From: Pseudomonadota bacterium
GTDB lineage: Bacteria > Desulfobacterota > Desulfobacteria > Desulfobacterales > RPRI01
Assembly (NCBI GenBank): GCA_018817425.1
Contig: JAHITX010000060.1
Location: 1 to 64,000, forward strand
Length of the DNA: 64,000 bases
Direction of reading: 5' to 3'
A model generated the notes under the pieces. It saw only the letters and a list, made by a program, of their open reading frames with translations. It had not been told where the DNA came from and did no database searches. The translations under genes were made by a program, and so were the position numbers. Shown here in pieces: positions 24,268-32,078 of this stretch (position 1 is its first letter; each line of letters begins with the position of its first letter).

Positions 24268-25911
24268 TCAGTCTTTAAAAGGTGATTCAATCATTTCAAA
24301 CGGGTCGTAATGATGACCACGGCCTACTCTTAATGAACCCCATATTTCGCCTATAGTTGCATATTCTTTACAGGCTTCTATCATGGTTGGAGTAAGATTA
24401 ACATTTCCCTGTTTGTCTTCTTCTACCAGTTTTTTTATTAATTCTTTTACAGCATTATTATTTCTCTTCTTTTTTATATCCTTTACTCTCTGAACCTGTT
24501 CGGCAGTAGAAGCTTTAGATACTACATGAATGGGAATTTTATGGTCTTGTTCAGGTGGAACCACCAAATCGTTAATACCTACAAGTTTCATGTCTCCGCT
24601 TTCTATATCTGTCTGACGCTTTAAAGCAGCTTCGTCTATCATTGCCCTTATCCATCCGTCTTTAACGCCTTCTTCCAGACCTCCCTTGTCAAGTATCTTC
24701 TGAAGAAGTTCCCATGACCTCTTTTCTACTTCGTTTGTAAGCCACTCAACATAGTAAGAGCCGGCAAGAGGATCAACCACATTGGCAATTCCGGTTTCAT
24801 AAGCAAGAATGTTTTGTGTACACATAGCAATCCTGGTTGCAACTTCCGTAGGCAGACATAAAGGCTCATCATACATAACAGGGTCAATGGCATTACAGCC
24901 GCCAAGAGCAGCAGACATAAGCTGTACTGCAATTCGCCCTATATTGTTAAGAGGCTGCTGAGCTATAGCTGTAAGTCCGGATACCCGTGCTGCGATATAA
25001 AGCTTTTGTGCTCTCGGATTCTTGGAACCGTACCTTTCTCTTGCTATTTTTGCCCATATTCTTCTGGATGCCCTGAATTTGGCAATTTCTTCAAAAAAAT
25101 CCATCCATATTGTAAAAGTAAAAGGAACCCTGTTTGCAAATTCGTCAAAATTTAATCCGCGCTCTACAAGCCGGTCGGCAAATGCTATTGTGGAAGCAAA
25201 TCCCAGTGCTGTTTCCATAACAGCAGGCGTCCCTTCTTCTGAAACATTGTGTGCGCTTGTATGAAATGTTGCAAATCTTAATTTATTTTTCGAACAGTAT
25301 TCGACTACATCAACTGCAAGTTTGGACCATAAATCCAGAGGCTGAGGGGTAACAAAGCCACTGTAGTACTGACAATATAAATTAAGAGCAGCACCGCCGT
25401 TTAAAGCAGAATAAGGGACGCCCTGCTTTTGGGCCATAGCAAAAAACATACAGGGTAAAACCGGGCCGCTTGCCCCTGACGATTCGAAAGTGATTGTTGT
25501 CTTGTCAATAGGAAAGCCTTCTAAAATGGTTTCAACATCATCTAATGAGGATACCGGTATGCCAACCAAACCGGCTTCATCCACTGCCATAGGATGGTCA
25601 GCATCAATTCCGACCTGAGTGGGGTAATCATTTACAACCTCAACTCCTTCCGATCCTATGCTGGCCAGATACTTCAGTCTTTCCATGGAATCTTTTGCCG
25701 AACCGAATCCGGAAAGAAATCTTCTTGTCCAGATTCTGTTTCGAAACATCCCCTTATATAAACCTCTTGTATAAGGGTATTCCCCGGCTTCACCGAGATC
25801 CCTGTCATAATCAAAATCTTTTAAGTCTTCGGGCTTATACATCTCTTTTAATGGTATACCTGAAGCCGACTCGAACTTCCTGTTTGCGTCTTCCTGAATC
25901 GTTGTTTTCAT
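24268..25911 (-). CDS. B12-dependent acyl-CoA mutase, large subunit
   Basis: A 547-residue substrate-binding (TIM-barrel) subunit of the methylmalonyl-CoA mutase superfamily, lacking its own B12 domain. Family marks include W61-T-R-R-F-L-S-G-F, DYPTQVGIDADHP (about 95-107), TPQP (188-191), a histidine at about 221 in SAHNVSEEG, and the late LAYETGIANVVDPLAGS. By eye alignment, the residue equivalent to Tyr89 of methylmalonyl-CoA mutase is Leu66, and the carboxylate-binding Arg207 is replaced by Leu194. Methylmalonyl-CoA is therefore an unlikely substrate. It overlaps the B12-binding subunit gene by 4 nt and is last in the operon. The substrate is unknown. Confidence 0.88.
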   Translation of the reverse strand: MKTTIQEDANRKFESASGIPLKEMYKPEDLKDFDYDRDLGEAGEYPYTRGLYKGMFRNRIWTRRFLSGFGSAKDSMERLKYLASIGSEGVEVVNDYPTQVGIDADHPMAVDEAGLVGIPVSSLDDVETILEGFPIDKTTITFESSGASGPVLPCMFFAMAQKQGVPYSALNGGAALNLYCQYYSGFVTPQPLDLWSKLAVDVVEYCSKNKLRFATFHTSAHNVSEEGTPAVMETALGFASTIAFADRLVERGLNFDEFANRVPFTFTIWMDFFEEIAKFRASRRIWAKIARERYGSKNPRAQKLYIAARVSGLTAIAQQPLNNIGRIAVQLMSAALGGCNAIDPVMYDEPLCLPTEVATRIAMCTQNILAYETGIANVVDPLAGSYYVEWLTNEVEKRSWELLQKILDKGGLEEGVKDGWIRAMIDEAALKRQTDIESGDMKLVGINDLVVPPEQDHKIPIHVVSKASTAEQVQRVKDIKKKRNNNAVKELIKKLVEEDKQGNVNLTPTMIEACKEYATIGEIWGSLRVGRGHHYDPFEMIESPFKD

Positions 25912-26342
25912 ATTTGCTTCTCCCTGACAGGATTTAAATCCCTTTTGCTTTTCTTTTCAACAAGGGATGTAATTGTTTCTACTATTACATTAGACATTGC
26001 TCCGGGCCCGATAACTGCGTCAACACCCAGTGCCTTTAGTTCATCAGGAAAAGGATCCGGAATGGTTCCGCCTACAATTACTACAACATTGTCCATTCCC
26101 TCTTTTTTCAACATGTCAATCAGCTTGGGGACCAGTCTGGTATGATTTGATGACTGACAGCTTATACCAACAACATCTGCATCTTCTTCTACAACGGCCT
26201 TGAAAATTGTTTCAGGACTTTGAAATCTTCCAAGATATACCACTTCCATACCGGCATCACGCAACATTGCGCTTACAATTTTGGCTCCTACATCGTGCCC
26301 GTCAAGACCAATTTTTGAAATTACTGCTTTTATCTGCTTCAT
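25908..26342 (-). CDS. B12-binding small subunit of acyl-CoA mutase
   Basis: A 144-residue Rossmann-like cobalamin-binding domain. The base-off/His-on signature D14-G-H16-D-V-G19 supplies the lower cobalt ligand, and the VIVGGTIPDPF segment fits the later nucleotide-tail pocket. This free-standing size matches the small subunits of isobutyryl-CoA and 2-hydroxyisobutyryl-CoA mutases and of archaeal methylmalonyl-CoA mutases. It is translationally coupled to the large subunit gene (4-nt overlap) and 108 nt after the thiolase gene. Confidence 0.92.
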   Translation of the reverse strand: MKQIKAVISKIGLDGHDVGAKIVSAMLRDAGMEVVYLGRFQSPETIFKAVVEEDADVVGISCQSSNHTRLVPKLIDMLKKEGMDNVVVIVGGTIPDPFPDELKALGVDAVIGPGAMSNVIVETITSLVEKKSKRDLNPVREKQI

Positions 26343-26450
26343 GAGATACTTCCTCTTTGCATTAGATTTTAGGCAATATTGAAGCTCCCCGACGCAAGCA
26401 TCGGGGATTGCGCTCGTTGTTGCGGTTCAACTCACCTGCCATTTACTTTT

Positions 26451-27644
26451 TTATTTAGGTTCCGTTCCAAAAATATTAACCAATGCAACGGCACCGGTTC
26501 CGCCAAGGTTATGCGTAAGGCCTATTTTCGGATCCTTTACCTGGCGTTTGCCGGCTTCACCACGCAATTGCCAGAATATCTCGCATGCCTGGGCTACTCC
26601 TGTGGCTCCAATGGGGTGACCTTTTGATTTTAATCCTCCGCTTACATTGCAGGGTATATCACCGTCTAACATTGGGCCACCGTTTTCCACCCATTGACCG
26701 CCTTTTCCCCGCTCACAAAAACCTAAGTCTTCGTAATCTATTAATTCCGTGCAGGTAAAACAGTCATGTATTTCGGCTACATCTATGTCTTTGGGCGAAA
26801 TATCGGCTATCTCGTATGCGGTTTTACCGGCTATTGTTGTTGTATCCCACTGGTGATAATGCCGTTTCTGGTGACCGTAAAAATCATCGCAGGCAAGTGC
26901 GCTGCTCCAAAGATATATCGGCTTGTCGGTATATTCCCTGGCGATATCTTCTCTGGTCAATATAATTGCTGCTGCACCGTCGGTTGTCGGGCAGCAATCA
27001 AACAGCCCTAATGGCCAACTTATCATCGGAGCATTCATTACCTGTTCCATGGTTACTTCAAACTGAAAATGGGCATACGGATCAAGAGTTCCGTTGTGAT
27101 GATTCTTTACCGCAATCATTGCAAAATGTTCTTTCTTTGTTCCGTATTTTGCCATATGGGCTACACCGAATTGCCCGTACATCGCAGGCCCTGTCAGCCC
27201 TCTTGGATGCCACCACTGATGATATGAGGTGTTGGCCTGGCCTATCATGGATTCACGTCCCGGAATGTCTCTCATCTTCTCGGCACCTACTACAAGTGCT
27301 ACATCATATACTCCGGCTTTAATGGCAAAAGCTGCCTGACGTATAGCATCACTGCCGGTACAACAGGCGTTTTCCACCCTGCTTACAGGTTTATCATAAA
27401 ATGTGAGCGCATTGGAAAGGGTGGCTCCGCTTACTATTTCTTTTCTCAAGCTTGTTCCGGGTAAACAACATCCGAACCATGCAGCTTCAATCGCATCTTC
27501 TTTTATTCCCTTGTCAACGCTTTTTAAGCAATTCTCATATGATTCAAATATCATGTCTTCTAAGCTTTTTTCAAAAAGCTCTCCGAAACGAATCATACCA
27601 GCGCCTACCACTGCTACATTTAAAGGATTCTTTTTACGCGCCAT
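26451..27644 (-). CDS. Thiolase-family (SCP2-type) acyl-CoA thiolase
   Basis: A 397-residue thiolase-fold protein of the SCP-x/lipid-transfer branch. The nucleophile region ENACCTGSD holds Cys94, and the C-terminal GGLKSKGHPIGATG supplies the catalytic histidine. EIHDCFTCTELI is the usual third motif. Members of this branch often need a DUF35 zinc-ribbon/OB partner, and here a DUF35 domain is fused to the neighbouring synthase-like protein, whose gene ends 4 nt upstream. It probably cleaves or forms a beta-ketoacyl-CoA made in the operon's pathway. Confidence 0.9.
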   Translation of the reverse strand: MARKKNPLNVAVVGAGMIRFGELFEKSLEDMIFESYENCLKSVDKGIKEDAIEAAWFGCCLPGTSLRKEIVSGATLSNALTFYDKPVSRVENACCTGSDAIRQAAFAIKAGVYDVALVVGAEKMRDIPGRESMIGQANTSYHQWWHPRGLTGPAMYGQFGVAHMAKYGTKKEHFAMIAVKNHHNGTLDPYAHFQFEVTMEQVMNAPMISWPLGLFDCCPTTDGAAAIILTREDIAREYTDKPIYLWSSALACDDFYGHQKRHYHQWDTTTIAGKTAYEIADISPKDIDVAEIHDCFTCTELIDYEDLGFCERGKGGQWVENGGPMLDGDIPCNVSGGLKSKGHPIGATGVAQACEIFWQLRGEAGKRQVKDPKIGLTHNLGGTGAVALVNIFGTEPK

Positions 27645-27648
27645 ATCA

Positions 27649-29133
27649 TCACCCCCCTGCTTTTTCGTCTATAAGTCTGAACTTATATCCGTATTTTACG
27701 ATATCGTTTTCCATGCCATGCCGCCTTAAAACAAGTTCGACCTTTGCCCCTACTTTTACTTTCTCCATAGGGCTGTCTACCATCATGGCGCTTATTTTGC
27801 CGCCGTATTCTCCCTGTTTTCCGGCTACCCTTGCTATGCACATTGGAAATGGCGCTTGTTCAGGATCCAGATAAACTATAAACTGATGAAAAAACGTTTC
27901 GATAACTCCCTTGCGGGGTAACGGAACTTTCTCAAACTCGCGGCTCCTGCAATCTTTTTCAACGCATATGTTTCGCTTTGGAAAATTTATGGACCCGCAC
28001 TTGGTGCATTTTAAAGCCTTAAGACCAAACACAAAATCTTTATCACGCCAAAATAAAGGAGAAGAATCAACTGAAGACATTGGTTCCGGAAGGGCCAGGC
28101 CTTTTAGTCTCCCCTTAATTTTTTCGTACTGAATGTATTCTATGTATTGTTTATAATCATCCTTAAAATAATTCTGCACAGGCGATATATGCCCTCTTTT
28201 TTCATCTATCCCCTTTGTTGCAGTAAGAAGAAAAGCATCGCTTCCTGCACCCGATCCGTAAGAAGCCACAAGTATCTTCTCATCAGGCTTGGCATTATCC
28301 AGACCAGCTGCAAGAGCTATTAAGGATGAAGCTGAACCGGTGTCTCCTATCATCGGGGAAAGAGCGGTAACACTTAGTGCTTCGGGTTTAAACTTCATAG
28401 ACTTTGCTACATCAGCAGGGCTTTTTCCATCCGGCTGGGTAACCGCCAGGTATGAAATATCTTCGGGTTTAAGTTTTGTTTCAGCTAAACATTTACCTAT
28501 TGCTTGTCTTATATGAGCAAAATAACCCGCAGTTCTGTGAAAACGGGCATCATCATAGAAATTGGCATAATCTTTTTTTGCCATACGCCAGGTTGTATTT
28601 AAAGATGTTGATTGGGCTACACCGCTTCCAAGTTCTGCAATTGCATCACTTGTCCCCAGAATAAAAACCGCCGCCCCTGCGCCATATGCCGTTTCCAGCT
28701 GAGTTCCCATTTCTGCTACCTGGCAATCTGCTCCAATAGCCATGCCATACTTAGTTTTTCCGGAATCAACAAGGCCGGCGCACCCTAGTAATGCCGCCGT
28801 ACCGGCTCGAACCGATCCGCCAAAATCTGCTATTATAACACCATCGGAAACACCCAAAGCCTCGGCAATCAGAATCGCTGAAGACTTATCAATATAAGCA
28901 CCCGATACGGTGCCCAAATATAATGCCCCGATATCTGATGCATCCAGCCCGGCATGTTTTAAGGCATTAAAAGAAGCTTCAACAGCCAATGTAACAATGT
29001 CTTCATCTTCGCCTGCTACACTTTTTTCTTTAACTCCGCCCGCAATTCCTCCAAACGGCCAGGCTTTAGCTATAGACTTTGTAACAATCCTCTTTCTTGG
29101 GATTGAAACCCCATATCCAATTATACCCGCCAT
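27649..29133 (-). CDS. HMG-CoA synthase-like protein fused to a DUF35 zinc-ribbon/OB domain
   Basis: A 494-residue two-domain protein. Residues 1 to about 340 have the thiolase fold of HMG-CoA synthase/KAS III enzymes (GYGVSIPRKRI, YGAGAAVFILG, SYGSGAGSDAFLL). Residues about 375-494 are a DUF35 domain with zinc ribbon CTKCGSINFPKRNIC and a second cysteine, CRSREF, followed by an OB fold. The position of the synthase nucleophile (ACYGGTAAL in usual enzymes) reads S-V108-R-A-G-T-A-A-L, so the catalytic cysteine appears to be missing. In archaea a separate DUF35 protein bridges thiolase and HMG-CoA synthase; here it is fused and adjacent to a thiolase. The reaction is unknown. Confidence 0.87.
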   Translation of the reverse strand: MAGIIGYGVSIPRKRIVTKSIAKAWPFGGIAGGVKEKSVAGEDEDIVTLAVEASFNALKHAGLDASDIGALYLGTVSGAYIDKSSAILIAEALGVSDGVIIADFGGSVRAGTAALLGCAGLVDSGKTKYGMAIGADCQVAEMGTQLETAYGAGAAVFILGTSDAIAELGSGVAQSTSLNTTWRMAKKDYANFYDDARFHRTAGYFAHIRQAIGKCLAETKLKPEDISYLAVTQPDGKSPADVAKSMKFKPEALSVTALSPMIGDTGSASSLIALAAGLDNAKPDEKILVASYGSGAGSDAFLLTATKGIDEKRGHISPVQNYFKDDYKQYIEYIQYEKIKGRLKGLALPEPMSSVDSSPLFWRDKDFVFGLKALKCTKCGSINFPKRNICVEKDCRSREFEKVPLPRKGVIETFFHQFIVYLDPEQAPFPMCIARVAGKQGEYGGKISAMMVDSPMEKVKVGAKVELVLRRHGMENDIVKYGYKFRLIDEKAGG

Positions 29134-29157
29134 AATTATACCCTCGCTTTATAATTT

Positions 29158-30312
29158 TTATTGTTTCACTTTTTTGGCAAGCTCAGCTGCTATAACCAAA
29201 CGCTGTATTTCATTCGTTCCTTCGTATATCTGAAAGATTTTAGCATCCCTGTAAAGTTTTTCAACCGGATATTCCTTGGAATAACCATATCCTCCGAAAA
29301 TCTGTACAGCCTGAATGGCTGCCCTTACAGCTGCATCACCGGCCATGGCTTTAGCCTGGGATGACTCCAATATAGGAAGCTTTCCCTGATCAACCAGCCA
29401 TGCCGCTCTCCAGGTAAGCAAACGTGCTGCATCTATTTCCATGGACATTTCAGCCAATTTTAGTTGAATAAGCTGCTGGGCGATCAAAGGCTTACCGAAC
29501 TGAACCCTCTCGGAAGCATACTTTAAAGATTCATCCAGTGCCCTTTGGCCAAGGCCCAATGCGGTTGCAGCCGCCAAAGCCCTTGACCGGTCAAGAGCTT
29601 CCATAGCCACAACAAAACCCTGGCCTTCCTTACCTAATAAGTTCTCTTCGGGTATTCTTACATCTTCTAAGATCAACTCGACCGTATGAGATGCCCGGAT
29701 ACCCATTTTATCTTCTTTTTTTCCTACTTTTATTCCTGCTTCTTTGGGAACGATAAAGGCGCTTAATCCCTTGTGAGCTTTAGATGGGTCTGTTTTTGCT
29801 ATAACAACATATACTGATGCCAGATCTCCGTTTGTGATAAAGGTTTTTCGGCCATTTAGCACATATTCGGAACCTATTTTATCCGCCTTGGTTGAAACGG
29901 CAGATACATCCGAACCGGCTCCCGGCTCGGTTACAGCAAAAGCTACAAACTTAATATCTTCAGATTCGCAGATTAACTTTAAATACTTTTCTTTTTGTTC
30001 CGGGGTTCCGAAAAACATTATTGGGATTACTGCTATACTGTTTAACAGCAAAGAAGTGGCAATGCCGGCGCACCCGTAAGTCAGTCCTTCGGCAATCAAA
30101 CATGTTTCCATCATCCCCATGCCTGCTCCGCCATATTCTTCCGGAACACCCGCATTAATCAATCCCAGTTCATGTGCCTTCTGGGCAACATCCATTGGAA
30201 GTGTCCCCAGTTTGTCATATTCGGCAGCAATGGGTATGATTTCATTTTTTACAAATTTATCAACCATATCCTTTAAGGCAACCTGTTCTTCGCTCAATTC
30301 AAAACTAATCAT
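29158..30312 (-). CDS. Acyl-CoA dehydrogenase
   Basis: A 384-residue FAD-dependent acyl-CoA dehydrogenase of the short/medium-chain type. Signatures are AFAVTEPGAGSD, the NGRKTFITNG loop, RVQFGKPL, and QIFGGYGYSKEYPVEKLYRDAKI. The catalytic base is the glutamate of IYEGTNEIQR near residue 365. Its electrons go to electron-transfer flavoprotein, which is not encoded in this window. It is the first gene of the five-gene operon, 60 nt downstream of the proposed sigma-54 promoter. Confidence 0.93.
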   Translation of the reverse strand: MISFELSEEQVALKDMVDKFVKNEIIPIAAEYDKLGTLPMDVAQKAHELGLINAGVPEEYGGAGMGMMETCLIAEGLTYGCAGIATSLLLNSIAVIPIMFFGTPEQKEKYLKLICESEDIKFVAFAVTEPGAGSDVSAVSTKADKIGSEYVLNGRKTFITNGDLASVYVVIAKTDPSKAHKGLSAFIVPKEAGIKVGKKEDKMGIRASHTVELILEDVRIPEENLLGKEGQGFVVAMEALDRSRALAAATALGLGQRALDESLKYASERVQFGKPLIAQQLIQLKLAEMSMEIDAARLLTWRAAWLVDQGKLPILESSQAKAMAGDAAVRAAIQAVQIFGGYGYSKEYPVEKLYRDAKIFQIYEGTNEIQRLVIAAELAKKVKQ

Positions 30313-30371
30313 AATTCACTCCGTTTTTGCAGATGTTGTTTTGTAATCATCGGTATGAACCCATACTAATA

Positions 30372-30389
30372 AGCATAAAGCGGGCCAAT
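30372..30389 (-). promoter_or_regulatory. Sigma-54 (-24/-12) promoter for the acyl-CoA operon
   Basis: On the minus strand the sequence TTGGCCCGCTTTATGCTT has GG and GC separated by exactly 10 bases, the invariant spacing of RpoN promoters. It stands 60 nt before the acyl-CoA dehydrogenase start and points into that operon. The adjacent divergent gene encodes a sigma-54 activator, which supports the call. Confidence 0.75.
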
Positions 30390-30440
30390 ATATAAAATAA
30401 AAATATATCAATAAGTTATACATGAGCGCTTGTAAATAAT

Positions 30441-30501
30441 TCCAATATGCTGTAATGTACTTCCAACATATTGGAATATGTTATAAATACAATCCAATAT
30501 A
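30441..30501. promoter_or_regulatory. Palindromic activator sites (upstream activating sequence)
   Basis: TTCCAACATATTGGAA at 30461-30476 is an inverted repeat with perfect 6-bp arms. Related half-sites occur on either side (TTCCAATATG near 30440-30449 and TCCAATATACCGGA near 30493-30506). They lie roughly 60-120 bp upstream of the sigma-54 promoter, the usual distance for an enhancer-binding protein. They also lie before the chosen start of the activator gene, so the activator may regulate itself. Confidence 0.6.
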
Positions 30502-30548
30502 CCGGAATATATTTAATTTGTATATCAGGAAATGAAAGAGTGATTGAA

Positions 30549-32078
30549 ATGAATATCAATGAGAAAGATTTTTTCCATCAGGCCACTAAACGGATTTGCG
30601 GAAACCTTGAGATAGAACAGGCGATGCTGCATACCTTTGAATACCTGAAAGATTTTATACCACTGGATGAAATGTGGCTGATTCTGGTAGATAGAAATAT
30701 AGGTACAATAAAAACCATTGCGGGTGCAAATCATGCCGGTGCAAGAATAATGGACAGGCTTATACATGTTCCGGCGAATATAAGAAAGGAGCTTAACGAG
30801 TACGATTTTACACCCAAAAAAATAACAATTATCAACAGAGCCGAACTTAATCCGCTTGCCTTTAATTTATTAAATGTTTTGGGTTATCCTGATTCATCTT
30901 CATTGGTTTTTTCACTGTCAACCAATACTGACAGAATAAGTGTTTTTGTTATAAGAGCCACAGGAAAAGACCGGTTTTCGGATTCACATGCACGTCTGCT
31001 TGCCATGCTTCACGACCCAATTGCAATTGCCATGTCTAATGCCTTAAAGCATGAAGAATTACTTAAACTCAAAGAAGATGACAACAGGTATCTTGCCCAG
31101 GAGCTGCGTCAATTAACCGGAGAAGTAATCATAGGTGCAGAGTCCGGATTAAAAAATGTTATGGATATGGTTCAACAAGTGGCAATGAGAGATAATCCTG
31201 TATTGCTTTTAGGTGAAACCGGAGTTGGTAAAGAAGTAATAGCCGATGCTATTCATTATACTTCAAACCGTAAAGACGGTCCTTTTATCAAGGTCAACAG
31301 TGGTGCTATTCCCGAACACCTTATAGATAGTGAGCTTTTCGGACATGAAAAAGGAGCATTTACCGGAGCGGTGAATCAAAAAAGAGGGCGTTTTGAAAGA
31401 GCACATGGAGGAACAATTTTTCTTGATGAGATCGGAGACTTGCCCATTCAGGCCCAAAGCCGGTTATTACGCGTTCTTCAGCAAAAAGAAATTGAGCGTG
31501 TAGGTGGTACCAAAACTATTCTTGTTGATACCAGAATTATTGCCGCTACTCACCGTAATTTAGAACAATTGGTTTTTAATAAAAAATTCCGTGAGGATCT
31601 TTGGTACAGGCTAAGCGTTTTTCCTATCGTGATTCCACCATTACGGGAAAGAAAATCAGATATTCCTGCGCTGGTTAAGTATTTTTTGAAACGAAAATCG
31701 AGAGAGATGAATTTTCGTACTTTACCGGAGGTTAAGCCCGGGGCAATTGAGAAGATGATTGAATATCCATGGAGCGGAAATGTTCGTGAACTTGAAAATG
31801 TAGTAGAAAGGGCGCTTATCCAATATAGAGGAGGCCAATTAACTTTTGAGCATTTACATTTTCATCCTGTTGAAGAAACATTACTTCCTTCTGCTACAGA
31901 TGGAAGGATATTAACACTAAACGAGATCGATGCCCGCCACATTCGTTTGGTGCTTGAAACAACAAATGGAAGAATTAATGGTAAAGGCGGAGCAGCAGAA
32001 CTTTTATCTATACATCCAAACACTCTTAGATTCAGGATGGATAAACTTGGGATAAGTTATGGGAAAAAGAATATGTAA
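30549..32078 (+). CDS. Sigma-54-dependent transcriptional activator
   Basis: About 509 residues from the ATG at 30549. An in-frame ATG at 30471 would place the operator palindrome inside the gene, so the later start (or a GTG at 30540) is preferred. The N-terminal GAF-like sensor domain occupies about 10-175. The AAA+ domain has Walker A GETGVGKE at about 222, the sigma-54-contacting GAFTGA loop at about 269, and [14 protein letters not shown] Fis-type helix-turn-helix ([18 protein letters not shown]) ends the protein. It is divergent from the acyl-CoA operon and is the obvious candidate for its activator. The GAF domain presumably senses a pathway compound. Confidence 0.92.

Follow-up and report, generated by a model that had tools for sequence, protein, structure and literature searches.

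The 64,000-nucleotide stretch of DNA analysed here (the window; contig JAHITX010000060.1 of assembly GCA_018817425.1, from a bacterium of the Desulfobacterales) carries an operon for a vitamin B12-dependent acyl-CoA mutase, the large (substrate) subunit of which (547 aa; positions 24268..25911, − strand) matched PF01642 (MM_CoA_mutase) with 479 bits. This subunit appears to be a variant within the known mutase superfamily, with a pocket matching none of the families compared, and it probably acts on a compound so far not linked to B12 carbon-skeleton chemistry. On balance we incline to the view that it belongs to an active adenosylcobalamin mutase with a pocket for a polar or bulky acyl-CoA, working with beta-oxidation partners; the origin of that acyl-CoA from a cyclic compound is the weaker part of the proposal. 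To our knowledge, only a handful of substrates of B12-dependent acyl-CoA mutases are known.

Substrate pocket and fold of the mutase

We mapped the residues of the large subunit by phmmer alignment with 1req_A, using the numbering of methylmalonyl-CoA mutase (MCM), and cross-checked the map by hhalign of the four-member window clade (the large subunit and its close orthologues) against 11 MCM-like sequences and by MAFFT alignment of 81 sequences. In the phmmer map the known MCM residues, including the adenosyl-side Glu247 and Glu370, fell at their published numbers. All three alignments agreed on the register, with no gap around the Arg207 site, and hhalign was ungapped over 171–228. Compared with MCM, Tyr89 was replaced by Leu66, Thr166 by Glu143, Thr195 by Gly173, Gln197 by Ala175, Arg207 by Gly185, Tyr243 by His221, His244 by Asn222, His328 by Ala307 and Gln330 by Arg309. 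Tyr75, Arg82, Arg87, Glu247, Arg283 and Glu370 of MCM were kept, the two adenosyl-side glutamates corresponding to Glu225 and Glu349 of the large subunit. The altered pocket residues were identical in the four full-length members of the window clade, which together with the low dN/dS (given below) points to more than a chance effect, and the combination of Ala175, His221, Asn222 and Arg309 was found only in that clade among the 81 rows. Two of the replaced positions are represented in the PDB listing by the MCM mutants Y89F and H244A (5req, 1e1c).

An earlier note, made from the DNA letters, had placed Leu66 at Tyr89 of MCM and Leu194 at the carboxylate-binding Arg207. The former held in the phmmer and hhalign alignments; the latter did not, as Arg207 fell on Gly185 in all three alignments, and our guess is that the earlier reader anchored on the PQP motif and took the later Arg of 'PSMR'. 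The note was right that the residues before the Arg207 site differ, NGGAALNLYCQ replacing NGTIQNDILKE (hhalign). The change in the pocket is wider than it had seen, in that Gln197, Tyr243, His244 and Gln330 differ too.

The small, cobalamin-binding subunit (144 aa; 25908..26342, − strand) matched PF02310 with 103 bits and TIGR00640 with 126 bits. Between them the two proteins have the MM_CoA_mutase barrel, a B12 domain with an intact DxHxxG motif (DGHDVG) and both adenosyl-side glutamates, indicating that the pair is a separate-subunit mutase of the MCM superfamily. An AlphaFold2 (AF2) model of the large subunit, built from six sequences (pLDDT 62.6, pTM 0.69), matched human MCM (2xiq) with Z 37.2 and 2-hydroxyisobutyryl-CoA mutase (HCM) with Z 35.5 in the VIA search. 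Thus the mutase fold is retained, as the earlier note had said.

Comparison with solved mutases placed the pair close to several of them in fold and apart from each in the pocket. MCM (1req, 2xiq) shares the fold (Z 35–37) and the six kept residues, but the window enzyme lacks its Tyr89, Gln197, Arg207, Tyr243, His244 and Gln330 and has the B12 subunit as a separate protein. HcmA (PDB 4r3u) was the best PDB match by sequence and likewise has separate large and small subunits; it differs in having Ile at Tyr89 and Gln at Arg207, where the window has Leu66 and Gly185, and in keeping GYH and Gln330. IcmF (4xc6, 5cjw) is alike in fold (Z about 32), whereas it has a fused GTPase, keeps QAD and GYH and carries Phe at Tyr89 and Gln at Arg207. 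The uncharacterised YD-motif mutases of the phylum (such as L102, L109 and L042; approximately 38–43% identity) also lack Arg207 and, mostly, His244; the majority, however, keep Gln197, with Asp in the His244 column and His in the Gln330 column, where the window has Ala175, Asn222 and Arg309. Taken together, the comparisons indicate that the CoA channel is kept in part and that most specificity positions differ from those of MCM, HCM, IcmF and ethylmalonyl-CoA mutase (ECM).

A wider clade of mutases, their distribution and selection

Tree 1 was built from 62 of the 81 rows, 19 near-duplicates or a fragment having been dropped, and held no ECM or IcmF references. For tree 2 (51 rows), the basis of the approximately unbiased (AU) tests, 16 of those 62 rows were dropped (long branches, near-duplicates and three rows of the L040 type) and five reference rows were added. 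Its reference families were MCM, HCM, IcmF and ECM, without stand-alone isobutyryl-CoA mutase (ICM), pivalyl-CoA mutase (PCM), IaaG or the Desulfosarcina cetonica mutase. We take the Ruegeria 'protein meaA' to be ECM from the name MeaA, and the PM1 protein to be HCM. Two Streptomyces rows carried Tyr and Arg at the Tyr89 and Arg207 sites and so were not ICM-like.

In tree 2 the four rows of the window clade joined 23 uncharacterised mutases of the phylum in a 27-row group (support 100/99) that stood apart from MCM, ECM, HCM and IcmF; the corresponding split in tree 1 comprised 34 rows (support 100/98). A single clade of the window enzyme with MCM was rejected (AU p 0.0004), as it was with ECM (p 0.0008), with IcmF (p 0.006) and, although HCM was the best PDB match, with HCM (p 0.0017). 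The earlier claim that the large subunit is unlike known acyl-CoA mutases is thus upheld for these four families. In tree 1 long branches, among them L055, met near the window clade, so the immediate sister of the clade is unsure.

These tests bear on a reading in which the enzyme is a 2-hydroxyacyl-CoA mutase, as in acetone-degrading sulfate reducers, where a ketone and a C1 unit would give a 2-hydroxy-2-methylacyl-CoA that is rearranged to a 3-hydroxyacyl-CoA and cleaved by thiolysis. HCM was its best solved-structure match by sequence (354 bits), and ketone pathways with such a mutase are described for D. cetonica and Desulfococcus biacutus (PMC7888143). Against it, the clade with HCM was rejected, HCM retains QAD, GYH and Gln330, and neither a thiamine diphosphate-dependent lyase nor a 3-hydroxyacyl-CoA dehydrogenase was among the operon genes; we regard this reading as improbable.

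Loss of His244 was not unique to the window: in the 34-row group this column held mostly Asp (24 rows) or Asn (7 rows), the other three rows showing His, Gly and Phe. The Arg207 column of the group was mainly Gly (27 rows), followed by Tyr (4 rows), with Ser, Gln and Arg found once each. His244 was His in 22 of the remaining 28 rows, the six exceptions including L040, L041 and L049. By these trees and columns the window mutase is a single-genus, long-branch tip of a larger uncharacterised clade that mostly lacks Arg207 and His244. We found no description of such a clade in the titles and abstract openings covered by our literature search, most subscription journals lying outside that coverage. 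A broader reading, which we hold to be less likely than not, is that this is a large branch of B12 radical enzymes in which the MCM His has become Asp or Asn and the pocket has opened; anaerobes would use it to rearrange acyl-CoAs that are bulky and perhaps cyclic or terpenoid, some lineages with the branch having 13–30 mutase genes of all types per genome. What replaces the role of His244 in a clade that lacks both this residue and the Arg that binds the substrate in MCM is a testable question of mechanism. Such a clade could also account for the ability of members of this phylum, some of them found in deep groundwater, to open compounds on which beta-oxidation is blocked.

Orthologues were sought in three overlapping sets, made up of 59 relatives, 389 genomes from the same class and 395 from the same phylum; in the class and phylum scans at most three candidates were scored per genome, so that distant paralogues are undercounted. 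Orthologues of at least 90% identity were found only in the window's genus, in 3 of 10 genomes, and the other listed matches did not exceed 43%. A scan of GTDB with two peptides as queries returned 126 stretches, with four loci in two metagenome-assembled genomes (MAGs), whose contigs are those of genomes G009 and G006. One of the two MAGs is from African mines and the other is labelled KR11, a name that also belongs to a drillhole at Olkiluoto, Finland, sampled 367–384 m below sea level (PMC8275790); we infer from the label that this MAG came from that drillhole.

The window's genome (G000) had two intact mutase copies, in the window and on contig C113, which were 95% identical and lay in different settings. 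Its sister genome G006 had two copies, one apparently split over two contig ends, and one copy was found in G009 (87% complete). At the DNA level the copies were 91% identical within G000 and 90–91% within G006, and at most 87% identical over full length between genomes. We rejected a simple recent duplication as the source of the second copy, because both gene settings occur in G000 and G006; the copies being most alike within a genome although the settings are shared suggests that they have been homogenised (L035 8185–10447 and window 24268–26342; L037, L038 and L039).

The copies also bear on whether the protein is a drifted form of an ordinary methylmalonyl- or isobutyryl-CoA mutase, or an inactive relict. 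It has the same fold as human MCM (Z 37.2), and G000 also encodes a normal MCM (784 bits), so that this copy could decay. However, dN/dS of the large subunit was 0.03–0.06 in 6 of 6 pairs of copies, two copies persist in G000 and in G006, and the altered residues are invariant in the window clade. Drift or decay is hence the least credible of the explanations and very improbable. The other four operon genes had dN/dS of 0.02–0.10 between the window and G006.

Operon, promoter and partner enzymes

The earlier note had described a B12 mutase operon at 24268–30312, and its five genes and their coordinates were confirmed, with the PF01642 and PF02310 matches given above. All five genes lie on the − strand; transcription runs from the dehydrogenase gene through those of the pseudo-synthase/DUF35 fusion and the thiolase to the B12 subunit and finally the large subunit of the mutase, the last two genes overlapping by 4 bases. 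A sigma-54-type (−24/−12) promoter, TTGGCCCGCTTTATGCTTAT, with GG-N10-GC spacing, lies upstream of the dehydrogenase gene (30369..30388, − strand), and a sigma-54-dependent activator of 535 aa (AAA+ and HTH_8; PF00158 235 bits, PF02954 23 bits) is encoded divergently at 30471..32078 (+ strand). Between promoter and activator gene there are palindrome-like TTCCAACATATTGGAA repeats (30437–30478), which are possible activator sites. The promoter element was also present upstream of the G006 dehydrogenase gene (L063 5061–5077). A pattern derived from it matched 3 of 139 loci, namely L037 and L063, which are one place in G006, and L095, the window itself; since the pattern was drawn from the window sequence, any estimate of chance is post hoc. 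G006 retains all five genes together with the regulator, at 84–94% protein identity (regulator 89%). Beyond the regulator the neighbouring genes differ between the window and G006, and the wider gene context was therefore dropped as a guide to function. The conserved promoter and regulator with a small gene set make a compact target for enzymology.

The first gene encodes an acyl-CoA dehydrogenase (384 aa; 29158..30312) with Pfam ACAD domains and a YEG motif, similar to medium- and short-chain acyl-CoA dehydrogenases (MCAD/SCAD) in the PDB search. Its motif decided how we viewed the possibility of an aryl- or alkyl-succinyl-CoA/malonyl-CoA mutase of the IaaGH kind, which in the indoleacetate pathway converts phenylsuccinyl-CoA into benzylmalonyl-CoA; here dehydrogenation and thiolysis would come next. 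IaaB is reportedly PaaK-like and the iaa pathway is said to include a HyuAB-type enzyme; a PaaK-like ligase and HyuAB-family genes occur in the window's genome. Smaller side chains at the Tyr89 and Arg207 sites would also suit such a mutase, and a similar cast of ligase, mutase and dehydrogenase (IaaB, IaaGH and IaaF) is described in PMC8360864. However, all IaaF orthologues have GGG in the place of YEG (PMC8360864), and the YEG of the operon dehydrogenase led us to demote the iaa-operon reading from first choice. The usual carboxylate-binding Arg is gone as well, and the operon has no transferase gene, making this reading quite unlikely.

The thiolase (397 aa; 26451..27644) is of the SCP2/6ESQ type (PRK06064 433 bits, cut-off 420; 6esq_A, E 1e-73). 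Aligned with 6esq_A and 6hsj_A, it keeps the nucleophilic Cys (ENACC), HDCF and GHP. The protein between it and the dehydrogenase (494 aa; 27649..29133) fuses a domain like 3-hydroxy-3-methylglutaryl-CoA (HMG-CoA) synthase (6esq_I, E 1e-55) to a DUF35/ChsH2-type zinc ribbon and OB domain (6esq_E, E 1e-11). It still passed the NCBIfam HMG-CoA synthase (HMGCS) model PRK04262 (313 bits, cut-off 244); we rejected that identity, because the catalytic Glu, Cys and His of 6esq_I were aligned to Val, Val108 and Thr. The Cys column likewise held no Cys in PhlA (5m3k_A) or in the pseudo-synthases of family f109 (L103, partial), Paraburkholderia and G054, the last having a Cys one residue earlier.

The archaeal acetoacetyl-CoA thiolase/HMG-CoA synthase/DUF35 complex (6esq) and PhlACB (5m3k) have the same three families adjacent, whereas in the window the synthase and DUF35 parts are fused and the HMGCS Glu, Cys and His replaced, PhlA being likewise without the Cys. 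By analogy with the mechanism of these two complexes, the pseudo-synthase is likely to be a scaffold of the PhlA/PhlB type that joins the thiolase and the DUF35 domain. Thus the dehydrogenase and thiolase named by the earlier note are there, but its 'synthase-like' protein has lost the catalytic residues. Family searches found no enoyl-CoA hydratase, 3-hydroxyacyl-CoA dehydrogenase, CoA ligase or MeaB among the five operon genes, and the idea of a 'complete degradation route' finds no support here.

In the mechanism we propose, the sigma-54 activator would switch the operon on, and the mutase would shift the thioester group between adjacent carbons of an acyl-CoA by adenosylcobalamin radical chemistry. 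A polar or bulky acyl substituent would face Glu143, His221, Asn222 and Arg309 instead of the carboxylate site of MCM. The dehydrogenase and the thiolase, the latter scaffolded by the pseudo-synthase/DUF35 protein, would act before or after the mutase with beta-oxidation chemistry. With less assurance, the acyl-CoA might have its origin in a cyclic, hydrophobic compound resembling a terpenoid, a steroid or an aromatic ketone; two enzymes encoded at other places in the genome might supply it, one a carboxylase- or lactamase-like member of the HyuAB family and the other a PaaK-like CoA ligase.

Genomic clues to the pathway and related mutases

Of 25 contexts examined, 24 held a mutase; on the same stretch a gene like the operon's dehydrogenase lay in 10 of these, and one like its thiolase and/or pseudo-synthase/DUF35 in 7, many contigs being short and three of the 24, with neither type of partner, being GYH-type references. 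In G009 the thiolase/pseudo-synthase pair is flanked on one side by an Amidohydro_2 gene and on the other by the gene for a PaaK-like ligase; the G000 orthologues of these two flanking genes (96% and 90%, respectively) come after HyuA- and HyuB-like genes (G000:C120). Among solved structures the HyuA- and HyuB-like proteins were closest to subunits of acetophenone carboxylase (402 bits and 233 bits, respectively), and a C-terminal part weakly matched (E 1e-3) another subunit of that enzyme. In NCBIfam, acetophenone carboxylase delta came first for HyuB (266 against 195 bits), the cut-off not being reached.

Proteins of the DUF1302/DUF1329, old yellow enzyme (OYE) and YCF48 kinds are typical of bacteria that import and reduce cyclic, hydrophobic compounds. 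DUF1329, FAD-enzyme and OYE genes come before the dehydrogenase orthologue in G009. The three operon-bearing genomes had 24 (G000), 16 (G006) and 32 (G009) DUF1329 matches at E 1e-30, fragments included, compared with none in G001, G002, G004, G005 and G007 of the same genus, which are without the operon. OYE candidates from a first look numbered 80, 65 and 76 in G000, G006 and G009, respectively. A region of approximately 50 kb on a Paraburkholderia plasmid holds a related mutase with pseudo-synthase, thiolase, dehydrogenases, hydratase and MeaB as well as OYE, DUF1302, DUF1329 and YCF48 genes, and L102 of family f109 holds a mutase with DUF35, thiolase, two dehydrogenases, a crotonase, an OYE/BaiCD-like enzyme and FabG. 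Weak as they are, these clues favour substrates that are cyclic and hydrophobic or that derive from ketones.

The same company could suit a mutase of the pivalyl-CoA type, which would free an alpha-quaternary carbon for beta-oxidation of a gem-dimethyl or resin-acid-like compound: dehydrogenases and thiolases recur beside the mutases, and DUF1329, OYE and YCF48 genes lie alongside in two lineages. On the other hand, Glu143, His221, Asn222 and Arg309 would be odd partners for a hydrocarbon group, and the tree with one clade for the window enzyme and IcmF, which we take to be the frame of the known PCM, was rejected (p 0.006). We hold this alternative to be unlikely.

Several observations weigh against the polar or bulky acyl-CoA mutase that we favour, or against a cyclic source for its substrate. 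A pocket of Glu, His, Asn and Arg does not obviously suit a plain terpenoid acyl-CoA. Much of that pocket lies where the AF2 model has pLDDT below 50 (residues 1–70, 93–118, 184–188 and 346–385), too weak a model for distances to be measured there, so that the proposed pocket geometry is provisional. The second, near-identical mutase copies adjoin UroD-, MadB- and VWA-like genes, named largely by eye. What links the operon to HyuAB is a single gene arrangement, seen in one genome and on a contig of 5.4 kb. For HyuA, NCBIfam scored caprolactamase alpha (539 bits) higher than acetophenone carboxylase gamma (433 bits), both well below the cut-offs; the PDB and NCBIfam rankings differ, so HyuAB could be either a carboxylase or an enzyme of the lactamase/hydantoinase kind. 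The contrast in DUF1329 sets lineage against lineage (three against five genomes, with G003 and G008 outside it) and does not represent independent events, and the position of the Paraburkholderia mutase, a long branch, is unsure.

Three further observations concern related mutases. Genomes of family f109, of 1.9–3.1 Mb, had many PF01642 matches, partial genes included (G594 30, G462 29, G615 26, G572 26, G522 23, G494 22, G427 19 and G548 13), and G054 and G013 had 20 and 14. Another mutase of the window's own genus (L040 166–16994, on G000:C111; L041; L049) is divergent, with DGYN at the His244 site and Trp at Arg207; family matches assign to its operon HadC/BcrC-like and activase proteins, MeaB and an Etf subunit, to which inspection by eye adds a second HadB-like protein, two proteins like FAD glycolate oxidase and an Fe-S protein. 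Mutase relatives were also found on contigs catalogued in IMG/VR as viral (L123 3040–4578, L124 2974–4578 and L125 2–814), which may be mis-binned cellular DNA; L124 has Asn at the His244 site.

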